DNA of 64,000 nt from contig NZ_CP046056.1 of NCBI RefSeq assembly GCF_016132445.1, positions 2,542,501-2,606,500 on the forward strand. The letters run 5' to 3'. Shown here in pieces: positions 33,822 through 58,847 of the stretch (the stretch's first letter is position 1; every line of letters starts with the position of its first letter). The stretch comes from Venatoribacter cucullus (GTDB taxonomy: Bacteria; Pseudomonadota; Gammaproteobacteria; Pseudomonadales; Oceanobacteraceae). The notes under the pieces were generated by a model. The model worked only from the letters and a program-made list of their open reading frames with translations, was not told the DNA's origin and made no database searches. A program made the position numbers and the translations under genes.

Positions 33822-35033
33822 ATGAGCGAATATTCGATTTTTACCTCTGAGTCGGTATCCGAAGGACACCCGGATAAAGTCGCCGACCAGATTTCTGATG
33901 CCGTCCTGGACGCCATTATTGCCCGCGACCCCTATGCCCGCGTGGCGGTAGAAACGCTGGTAAAAACCGGTATGGCCATCGTTGCCGGTGAAGTAACCAC
34001 CTCCTGCTATGTCGACCTTGAAGACATCGTGCGTAACGTCATTACCGGTATTGGTTATAACAGCTCATTCGTGGGCTTCGACGGTGCCACCTGTGCGGTG
34101 CTGAACGGCATTGGCAAACAGTCTGTGGATATTAACCAAGGTGTTGACCGCGCCAAACCGGAAGATCAGGGCGCTGGCGACCAGGGCCTGATGTTCGGCT
34201 ACGCCACCAACGAAACCCCCAACCTGATGCCGGCGCCGCTGTACTACTCGCACCTGCTGGTACAACGCCAGGCCGAACTGCGCCGCAACGGCACCCTGCC
34301 GTGGCTGCGTCCGGATGCCAAATCTCAGGTAACCATTAACTACGAAGGCGACCAGCCGAAAATCGACGCCGTGGTCCTGTCGACCCAGCACGACCCAAGC
34401 ATCAGCCTGGAAGACCTGCGCTCTGCCGTGCTGGAAAATATTATCAAGCACGTCCTGCCGGCCGAAATGCTGCACGAAGGCACCCTGTACCACATTAACC
34501 CGACCGGCAATTTCGTGATTGGCGGCCCGGTGGGCGACTGCGGTTTAACCGGTCGTAAAATCATCGTCGACACTTACGGCGGTATGGCCCGTCATGGTGG
34601 CGGTGCCTTCTCCGGTAAAGACCCATCCAAAGTAGACCGTTCTGCTGCGTACATGGGCCGTTATGTGGCGAAAAATATCGTTGCTGCGGGTCTGGCTGAC
34701 CGTTGTGAAATTCAGGTGTCTTACGCCATCGGCGTGGCCGAACCGACCTCGGTATCGGTGAACAGCTTCGGCACCGGCAAACTCAGTGATAAAGAACTGG
34801 CCAAAGTAATCCGCACTGTATTCGACCTGCGCCCGTACGCCATTCAGAACCAACTGGAACTGCTGAACCCGATGTACCAGGCCACCGCCGCCTACGGTCA
34901 CTTCGGTCGCGAACCGTTCGAAATGACCTACGAATACAGCGAAAACGGCGAGAAAAAGAGCAAAACCTTTACCGCTTTCACCTGGGAACGGACGGATAAA
35001 GTGGAAGCGCTGAAAGCGGCGGCGGGAGTCTGA
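33822..35033 (+). CDS. metK: S-adenosylmethionine synthetase
   Basis: Makes SAM from methionine and ATP; 403 aa. Signature blocks are [20 protein letters not shown] at the N-terminus, the [16 protein letters not shown] loop near residue 118, and [19 protein letters not shown] near residue 263. It has AAGGAG 6 nt before the ATG. It directly follows sahR and is the first enzyme of the SAM-cycle block. A repeat arm of the heptad family begins three bases after its stop. Confidence 0.97.
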
Positions 35034-35035
35034 AC

Positions 35036-35069
35036 GTTAGGGGTTGAGCGTTCAGCGTTCAGCGTGTCC
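35036..35069. repeat. Left heptad arm of element A
   Basis: Four tandem seven-base units beginning GTT, followed by GTGTCC. It begins three bases after the metK stop. It is an imperfect inverted match to 35504-35537 and a direct match to the left arms at 36944 and 58766. Confidence 0.85.
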
Positions 35070-35089
35070 GGTGGTAACTCCGGACTTTT
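35066..35089 (+). terminator. Terminator-like hairpin after metK
   Basis: GTCCGG-TGGTAACT-CCGGAC, a perfect six-base stem with an eight-base loop, followed by TTTT. It overlaps the inner end of the left arm and could reduce transcription from sahR-metK into the downstream genes. Confidence 0.55.
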
Positions 35090-35128
35090 GCTTAACCCTC
35101 ACCCCGAATGTTAAACAAGGAGGTTGGC

Positions 35129-35488
35129 ATGAGAAATTATCAGGAGTTAGAAGCCTGGCAGCATTCGATGATATTAACGGAATCTATTTATCGTATTACT
35201 GCCAGCTTCCCTGAGAATGAAAGATTTGGACTGACCAGCCAGATGCGACGGGCTGCAATAAGCATCCCCTCTAACATCGCGGAAGGCCACGGCCGTGAGT
35301 CCGGACAGGATTTTAAGCGTTTTCTGCTGATTGCACGCGGTTCATTATCAGAGCTAGAGACGCAACTAAAAATTGCACAAAGAATTGGATTGTATGTTGA
35401 GGATGAAACGGTTGAGACACAGATTCAGCGTGTATTCTCGCTGCTTAATGGCCTCATCAACTATCTGAAACGAAAATTTAATCCGTAA
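35129..35488 (+). CDS. Four-helix-bundle protein, 23S rRNA IVP/S23 family
   Basis: Small protein of 119 aa of the four-helix-bundle family first known from intervening sequences in 23S rRNA genes (S23/IVP). Family landmarks: NYQELEAWQHSM at the N-terminus, FGLTSQMRRAAISIPSNIAEG at the helix 2 junction, and RGSLSELETQLKIAQRIG in helix 3. The related Avd proteins serve diversity-generating retroelements, but no reverse transcriptase or template repeat is here. I chose the ATG at 35129, 5 nt after a full AAGGAGGT, the strongest ribosome site I saw in the window. An ATG at 35108 in the same frame has none. The gene lies between inverted heptad arms, splitting metK from ahcY. Cellular function is unknown; RNA binding is only a family-level idea. 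Confidence 0.87.
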   Translation: MRNYQELEAWQHSMILTESIYRITASFPENERFGLTSQMRRAAISIPSNIAEGHGRESGQDFKRFLLIARGSLSELETQLKIAQRIGLYVEDETVETQIQRVFSLLNGLINYLKRKFNP

Positions 35489-35503
35489 CTTCGTTGGACT
35501 AAG

Positions 35504-35537
35504 GTGCACGCAAAACCTTGAACGCCCAACCCTTAAC
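35504..35537. repeat. Right heptad arm of element A
   Basis: GTGCAC followed by four units ending in AAC (GCAAAAC, CTTGAAC, GCCCAAC, CCTTAAC), the reverse-complement form of the GTT heptads. It ends 13 bases before the ahcY ATG, abutting its GAGAG ribosome site. Confidence 0.85.
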
Positions 35538-35550
35538 GACGAGAGATAAC

Positions 35551-36930: not shown

Positions 36931-36943
36931 TTGCGCGTACGGC

Positions 36944-37031
36944 GTTAAGCGTTCCGGGTTCAGCGTGCTGCGATCATCACCAAACATCGCAACACCTGGC
37001 TGCGGAGCGCGCCAAACGCTCAACGCCTAAC
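36944..37031. repeat. Heptad-armed inverted repeat without a gene (element B)
   Basis: Left arm 36944-36971 has GTTAAGC, GTTCCGG, GTTCAGC then GTGCTGC. Right arm 37004-37031, read on the minus strand, has GTTAGGC, GTTGAGC, GTTTGGC then GCGCTCC. The 32-base centre has a small inner repeat (TGCGAT/ATCGCA). It fills the ahcY-metF gap, ending 13 bases before the metF ATG. No reading frame fits inside. Confidence 0.8.
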
Positions 37032-37044
37032 GCGGAACGATAAT

Positions 37045-58765: not shown

Positions 58766-58847
58766 GTTAGGGGTTGAGCGTTCAAGGTTCAGCGCGCACG
58801 GCGATAATGACCGGAGCACGCCCAACCCTGAACGCCGAACGCCCAAC
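58766..58847. repeat. Heptad-armed inverted repeat without a gene (element C)
   Basis: Left arm 58766-58799 has GTTAGGG, GTTGAGC, GTTCAAG, GTTCAGC then GCGCAC. Right arm 58813-58847, read on the minus strand, has GTTGGGC, GTTCGGC, GTTCAGG, GTTGGGC then GTGCTCC. Only 13 bases separate the arms, so the transcript could fold into a long hairpin. Its left arm is nearly identical to that of element A, 23.7 kb away. It begins nine bases after the gshB stop. Confidence 0.85.

Follow-up and report, generated by a model that had tools for sequence, protein, structure and literature searches.

A gene for a four-helix-bundle protein of the S23/IVP family lies between metK (33822-35033) and ahcY in Venatoribacter cucullus and is enclosed by two inverted arrays of heptads. 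We analyzed it within a stretch of 64,000 nucleotides (the window, to which positions refer), and the features of the locus are as follows.

35036-35063, plus strand: left arm, heptads GTTAGGG GTTGAGC GTTCAGC GTTCAGC (repeat and pattern searches)
35064-35116, plus strand: GTG tail and spacer (sequence, by eye)
35117-35124, plus strand: ribosome-binding site AAGGAGGT (sequence)
35129-35488, plus strand: S23/IVP four-helix-bundle gene, 119 amino acids (PF05635, TIGR02436, match to 2gsc)
35510-35537, minus strand: right arm, minus-strand heptads GTTAAGG GTTGGGC GTTCAAG GTTTTGC, then GTGCAC inwards

The open reading frame runs from an ATG at 35129 to a stop codon at 35486-35488. Its product belongs to PF05635 (S23/IVP; E 3e-36, 124.3 bits against a cut-off of 33.8) and also matched TIGR02436, "four helix bundle protein" (125 against a cut-off of 24). 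The only solved chain matching it by sequence at E ≤0.001 was XCC0516 (2gsc; phmmer E 1.3e-35), a Xanthomonas campestris protein whose structure paper mentions, in its title, five four-helix bundles in one assembly. The most conserved letters over the tree alignment include Q38, R41, S45, N49, I50, E52, and E75. S23 is a common family and is not known to have a catalytic site. The 2.83-Mb host genome (G000) yielded one S23 gene. No PADLOC defense model matched the protein at E up to 1, ruling out a known anti-phage defense gene as its identity.

The two arms are convergent around the gene, with four GTTNRGS heptads in each. They make up an inverted repeat (35035-35066 and 35507-35538; 32 nt, 81% complementary) that is the longest listed for the 1.7-kb region. 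A sequence-only reading of this DNA had proposed exactly this arrangement, a 119-residue S23 gene with a ribosome site between inverted four-heptad arms, and the family assignment and the repeat search confirmed it. By eye, 35090-35116 is a degenerate block of reverse heptads, so the left arm and spacer look like a complete gene-less hairpin placed ahead of the S23 gene. This reverse block could pair with the left arm, altering access to the ribosome-binding site. No Rfam family matched within 33000-60000, ruling out a known RNA family as the identity of the element.

The arms belong to a dispersed element that is mostly gene-less. Within the window, GTTNRGCGTTNRGC (at most one mismatch) had 15 matches against 1.57 expected, a number reached by none of 100 shuffles. 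The double heptad, also with at most one mismatch, matched the host genome 276 times compared with 51 for the reversed pattern, and the triple heptad 189 times compared with 13. This excess and the gene-less convergent copies described below bear out the earlier proposal that the arms are dispersed. A local chance palindrome is ruled out by the pattern excess in the window and the genome, and by the association of arms with S23 genes, relative to control ORFs, described below. Two of the gene-less copies are in the window.

36937-37038, no strand: gene-less heptad element in the ahcY-metF gap, clear heptads at 36944-36964 (plus) and 37011-37031 (minus)
58766-58847, no strand: gene-less heptad element, four plus four heptads, 26-nt loop, 82 bp

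The gene-less elements have a consistent architecture. The copies examined came from listed forward matches, mostly clusters of several matches, and adjacent arm pairs were convergent in 24 cases and divergent in none (25 fetched stretches and the two window sites). These 24 elements span 46 to 234 bp with a loop of 25-27 nt in 11; the best-formed (four plus four heptads and a loop of 25-27 nt; 4/24) are 81-83 bp. In 27 longer host stretches, only 3 of 46 runs of at least three heptads were inside an ORF of at least 90 amino acids, and divergent gaps held 2 of the 43 intergenic runs, in stretches picked from forward matches. In some host elements, the arms enclose a second palindrome (GTAGGAGTGACATTTTTGTCACGA or a variant; G000:C1:861100-865000; 844950-845550). 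It looks like a RAYT-type REP, although the search of the host genome for PF01797 found no gene.

Perfect pairing is avoided between partner arms, while the fixed letters of the heptad stay. Over 19 short-loop elements, positions 1 (G, 134/135), 2 (T, 135/135), 3 (T, 135/135), and 6 (G, 131/135) were nearly invariant, and positions 4, 5, and 7 varied more. In the 19 gene-less elements, partner arms agreed at the variable positions at a frequency of 0.38, compared with 0.49 ± 0.04 for shuffled partners, and 1998 of 2000 shuffles were at or above the observed value. Pairing of partners that is better than random, which we had expected beforehand, is thus ruled out, and the earlier suggestion of a long RNA hairpin, if perfect pairing is the selected feature, is disfavored. 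The avoidance is perhaps due to cutting or loss of long perfect palindromes. Together, the reduced match between partners and the near-invariant fixed letters favor a protein that reads the array unit by unit rather than as a helix.

Inverted arms are associated with S23 genes across about a dozen phyla. We took the best 80 of 511 relatives of the window protein from a scan of genome contigs; by tree labels, these loci include methane-cycling archaea, many are metagenome bins, and some are near-copies (for example, eight Thiobacillaceae of one clade). The arm score compared the 200 nt on either side of a gene for inverted similarity. It exceeded the 99th percentile of swapped flanks at 43 of the 80 S23 genes (window included), compared with 3 of 80 in direct orientation. 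At a threshold of 18, picked after the scores were seen, arms were present at 59/80 S23 genes and at 4/259 control ORFs of the same loci (Fisher p 7e-43); at 21 or above the counts were 48/80 and 1/259. The control set came from mechanical calling of ORFs of at least 150 amino acids and may include coding flanks, a fault from which the swapped-flank controls are free.

A second sample, chosen independently of similarity to the window protein, showed the association too; it was drawn from the S23 genes of 369 genomes in the class that includes the host. There was a match over the Pfam cut-off in 71 of these genomes. We used 69 of the 96 over-cut-off places besides the window's own, omitting mainly fragments and repeated places in G378, and 68 of the 69 could be scored. 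Arms were found at 42/68 S23 genes and 14/805 swapped pairs (26/68 and 8/805 at a score of at least 21), and direct repeats reached the same score at 9/68 genes. The threshold was missed by 21/80 and 26/68 S23 genes in the two samples, some of which display heptads by eye. The sequence-only reading had linked arms and gene. The link holds in both samples (59/80 versus 4/259; 42/68 versus 14/805), but most host arms occur without the gene, because the host genome has one S23 gene and many arm pairs. The outcome that would have counted against that reading, arms everywhere with no statistical link, was not seen: the arms are frequent in the host, yet their link to S23 extends across phyla.

The arms in other lineages are also arrays of 7- or 8-nt units. 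Self-match was in excess at lags 7, 14, 21, and 28 (also 8 and 16) in S23 flanks and not in control flanks. Over lags 4-12, the best lag was 7 for 48 of 60 arm pairs (the 59 and the window) and 8 for the other 12, with self-match down to 0.35 in a few arms, and in the second sample it was 7 in 40, 8 in one, and 9 in one of 42 pairs; the best period was therefore 7 or 8 in 101 of 102. Read towards the gene, the arms had G>C in 55/60 and AG>CT in 57/60. Own-word 14-mers recurred outside the arms, within the same few-kb locus, at 15 of 59 loci (0.22 per kb compared with 0.016 in other loci), indicating that other lineages have gene-less copies as well.

S23 seems to be accompanied by no other gene. 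Named by eye, the 20 downstream neighbors read looked like ordinary genes without a common function, and guaA-, lysS-, atpG-, and rnc-like genes were among the neighbors. S23 was on the strand of both neighbors in 44 of 70 loci (two further loci had distant neighbors, and 8/80 were dropped for short flanks or no neighbor), and other adjacent pairs were on the same strand in 115 of 175, so its orientation is unremarkable. These two results speak against partner genes carried along with S23. At one locus (L062), the S23 element is, by eye, directly ahead of an ATP synthase gamma-subunit-like gene, with 7-nt arms of the GGTGCTA/GGTTCTA type that scored just 12 in the automatic test. Separately, 11 distant S23-like matches were listed at scattered places in a 1.5-Mb genome (G378:C1); ten are ORFs of 126-136 amino acids with identical or near-identical scores, which reads as a multi-copy S23-like gene.

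The word spelled by the arms is lineage-specific and tracks the S23 protein. Arm words include GTTTTTA (Lachnoclostridium) and AGGATTC (Gallionella, Thiobacillus), and the 8-nt words AGCGACGG (Phycisphaerae) and GTTTAGCG (ANME-1/Methanophagales). Word similarity was correlated with S23 identity (Mantel r 0.58, 0/2000 permutations, n=64). A word was common to 33 of 34 S23 pairs at least 80% identical, many of these close pairs being near-copies, and to about 1% of pairs at 45-50%. Octad units clustered on the S23 tree, with 5 changes compared with 12.5 when shuffled (0/500 as low), a result to which near-copies contribute. In one Thiobacillus denitrificans genome, each of two S23 genes (L050, L106) has its own word.

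The arm-S23 link, if general, predicts that a genome rich in GGGAATC should carry S23 inside that word. GGGAATC heptads were described in Xanthomonas by Rehm et al., with 70 and 75 convergent pairs in two genomes, mostly in the same gene context between the two (available part of PMC4692102). Among the 369 genomes of the class, the triple GGGAATC was found in one (G420; 19 matches, control 0). Its S23 gene (L288, G420:C14:67200-69200) is frame-broken, is between accB- and accC-like genes (identified by eye), and is preceded by GGGAATC units and followed by their inverse. The prediction held in this one case. The automatic arm test had missed the locus (score 13); the likely reason is that the frame break shifted the assigned end of the gene.

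Within the family, S23 is confined to the metK-ahcY gap. It is present in 5 of 34 genomes (G000, G003, G005, G010, G017), always in this gap, and the other 29 gaps are without it. It is therefore not the case that all relatives share the gene with no empty site, the other outcome that would have spoken against a dispersed element. The clean empty sites anticipated earlier were found in part: the 29 gaps are free of S23, but several hold other palindromes or a hairpin. G021, which lacks S23, has by eye kept a gene-less GTC heptad hairpin there. G006, the nearest genome by AhcY (97%), also lacks S23 and has a different palindrome; GTAGGGTGGGCAT...ATGCCCACCCTAC is present in the gaps of the S23-negative congeners G006 (L119) and G002 (L125), and by eye some other S23-free gaps have further short palindromes. 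The metK-ahcY gap seems to favor hairpins. No target-site duplication was recognizable in the orthologous gaps compared by eye, and the boundaries differ. By eye, the arm words in this gap are GTTNRGS in the host, GTCNGAN in G003 and G005, and of the GTCGGGC type in G010 and G017. The window S23 is 51-63% identical to the other four family S23 proteins, compared with 88-93% for AhcY, yet on the tree these four are its nearest rows by path, with no starred set that groups them. One ancestral S23 site with fast divergence weakly fits better than five separate gains.

Genomes with S23 tend to have the highest heptad loads. Triple-pattern matches (control in parentheses) were 189 (13) for GTT in the host and, for GTC, 77 (18) in G003, 346 (40) in G005, 1553 (78) in G010, and 586 (96) in G017. 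Among S23-negative genomes, GTC loads were 82 (13) in G021, 37 (8) in G025, and 34 (0) in G026; G011 had 68 GTT-like matches against a reversed control of 95, and every other S23-negative genome had at most 20. The five S23-positive genomes ranked 1, 2, 3, 4, and 6 among the 34, and net load was higher with S23 (p 3e-4), in a test that is biased because the words came from S23-positive genomes and other words in S23-negative genomes are missed. The double GTC pattern in G003 was barely above control (113 compared with 82), and a stricter GTC pattern in G005 gave 126 compared with 4.

Some elements in related genomes occupy the same sites and are spelled with a different word. We compared 30 host stretches at GTT matches with 15 G003 and 22 G005 stretches at GTC matches. 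The sampled host element gaps were shared by 3 of 13 G003 and 4 of 20 G005 sites, representing five distinct host sites. Two gaps beside ahcY that were fetched on purpose, and a weak match of L207 to L255 (69% over 511 nt), were left out of these counts. Significance varies with how many gaps are assumed: with 2500 gaps, chance would give about 0.15 (G003) and 0.22 (G005) shared sites and the p values are 5e-4 and 9e-5; with 600 gaps they are 0.02 and 0.015. By eye, the GTT array of the host corresponds to a GTC array at the orthologous sites, and the loops look unrelated. The window element at 58766-58847 has a GTC-word element at its orthologous G005 site, and the ahcY-metF gap, which holds the GTT element at 36937-37038 in the host, has GTC-word arms in G003 and G005 (by eye). 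At 2645k the array of the relatives is without a clear loop, and the host copy at 2278k is weak (both by eye). We favor the interpretation that the positions are old and the word has been rewritten in place; the alternative is that the same gaps were chosen again.

Based on these results, we believe, with modest confidence, that the S23 gene and the heptad hairpins are probably the two halves of one chromosomal repeat system resembling REPIN/RAYT systems (available parts of PMC3116915 and PMC8049555), in which a four-helix-bundle protein replaces the transposase. The S23 gene is inside one convergent-arm copy, and many gene-less copies with the same word are in the gaps of the same genome. Since a protein that reads each unit is favored by the arm statistics, we chose a partnership of this kind, with a partner that is not a transposase, as the best explanation. 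We infer that S23 binds the heptads and that the elements are mobile. An S23 oligomer, possibly a ring, would read the array in single-stranded form, as either DNA or RNA, with one subunit contacting the fixed letters of each 7- or 8-nt unit (GTT..G in the host, in other lineages mostly with an AG). More speculatively, recognition by S23 might, with host replication or repair enzymes, let arrays be copied, homogenized, and re-spelled; words at old sites might change along as S23 specificity drifts, and elements might decay without S23.

A broader form of this proposal is possible, but we regard it as more doubtful than not. S23 proteins in general would be oligomeric word-readers whose subunits recognize one 7- or 8-nt unit apiece. 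Working with replication or repair enzymes of the host, they would spread, homogenize, and re-spell arrays, and would rewrite old sites when their specificity changes. On this view, a single ancient S23 family of bacteria and archaea would have given rise to the heptads of Xanthomonas, Nostoc, and Beggiatoaceae.

It is unlikely, in our estimation, that S23 is simply an RNA-binding regulator with the heptads as its binding sites, somewhat comparable to TRAP, a ring-shaped protein around which repeated short motifs are wound. The 5' arm would autoregulate the S23 mRNA, gene-less copies would form a post-transcriptional regulon, and sites would have spread by ordinary duplication and not by S23. 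The fixed spacing with free letters between, the sense-strand polarity (55/60), and the scarcity of intergenic heptad runs in divergent gaps (2/43, in stretches picked from forward matches) are consistent with such a regulator, and translational control has been proposed for the TAACTGA heptamers of Beggiatoaceae, Cyanobacteria, and Bacteroidetes (available part of PMC4679880). However, for a regulon, the several hundred pattern matches in some genomes and the switch of word from one congener to another seem excessive, and the 20 downstream neighbors of S23 had, by eye, no common function.

It appears distinctly improbable that replication slippage and template switching form the hairpins without any part played by S23. 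S23 would be a passenger that lands in such places or needs a hairpin-prone gap, as the long near-perfect arrays in G011, in G017, and at the G010 S23 gene, and the other palindromes in the metK-ahcY gap of G006 and G002, might suggest; heptameric repeats are also reported to be over-represented in bacteria (available part of PMC4692102). Yet arms are rare at other ORFs of these loci, the controls (4/259), heptads track both the presence of S23 (with the biased word choice) and its identity, and slippage alone gives neither convergent-only pairs (24 to 0) nor the reduced match of partner arms.

We give very little credence to a mechanism like that of the intervening sequences in 23S rRNA genes, whose stems are cut by RNase III. 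Pairing of the arms in the transcript would let RNase III cut the stem and free the S23 message. The gene family is the same and the predicted RNA fold of 35034-35540, with the arms paired, was better than 100 shuffles (z -4.35), but the window element is outside a 23S gene, most copies are gene-less, and the variable positions of partner arms match below chance. A conventional non-autonomous transposon moved in trans by a reverse transcriptase, a RAYT/Y1, or another transposase is highly improbable: terminal inverted arms, dispersal, and the presence of PF00078 in G010 and G017 and of PF01797 in G005 and G017 would fit, but among these two families, the ones searched, reverse transcriptase (PF00078) is absent from S23-positive G000, G003, and G005 and Y1 transposase (PF01797) from S23-positive G000, G003, and G010, which rules out either as a requirement, the arms are degenerate arrays and not fixed ends, and no target duplication was recognized.

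S23 genes, dispersed heptads, and convergent heptad pairs are each already known; the link between S23 and heptads was not found in the literature searched, which was open-licence papers only. Our results suggest that an S23 gene and words spelled according to lineage form a two-part system. Through this link, the protein gains a testable ligand, and the ownerless repeats seen in several bacterial groups gain a candidate protein that makes or uses them. The matched pairs of protein and word from about a dozen phyla are a natural series from which specificity could be read. Rewriting of words in place, if it occurs, would re-spell an entire family of dispersed repeats, an unusual form of concerted evolution across scattered sites.

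The host elements share features with known heptamer repeats. Tandem heptads are common to Xanthomonas, Nostoc, and the host, and convergent pairs to Xanthomonas and the host, placing the host elements with the Xanthomonas type (available part of PMC4692102). The Nostoc repeat is GGGGA(C/T)T, and that source describes the repeats as possible G-quadruplex sequences; here, in contrast, a link to S23 is observed and the word need not form a G-quadruplex. The TAACTGA repeats are likewise dispersed intergenic tandem heptamers of one word, but are reported in the available part of PMC4679880 as direct, mostly just ahead of start codons, with one inverted case, whereas the host arms are convergent. 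The terms "four helix," "23S," and "intervening" were not found in the main text of PMC4692102 or in that of PMC4679880. As a separate observation, "23S rRNA IVP" is among the domains in a figure legend on CRISPR discovery (available part of PMC10910872), and heptad arrays might be mistaken for CRISPR-like repeats.

PF05635 resembles Avd of diversity-generating retroelements (available part of PMC10053308). No reverse transcriptase (PF00078) was found in the host genome, unlike in such a retroelement, and the window element is not one. Intervening sequences of 23S rRNA can hold an S23/IVP gene between complementary arms, as here, but the window element is between the protein genes metK and ahcY and has many gene-less copies, which sets it apart from that class.

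The closest resemblance is to REPINs, whose RAYT partner is a Y1 tyrosine transposase. As in those systems, a single-copy partner gene is flanked by the repeat (the host S23 gene is inside heptad arms), dispersed inverted pairs with a short loop are in gaps (24 convergent and none divergent in the host), the repeat sequence follows the partner protein (Mantel r 0.58 for S23), and the partner is at one genomic site within the family (the metK-ahcY gap). Unlike those systems, the partner is S23 (PF05635) and not a Y1 transposase (PF01797), the repeats are tandem 7- or 8-nt words whose spelling can be wholly different between congeners, and arms at S23 genes occur in archaea and about a dozen phyla.
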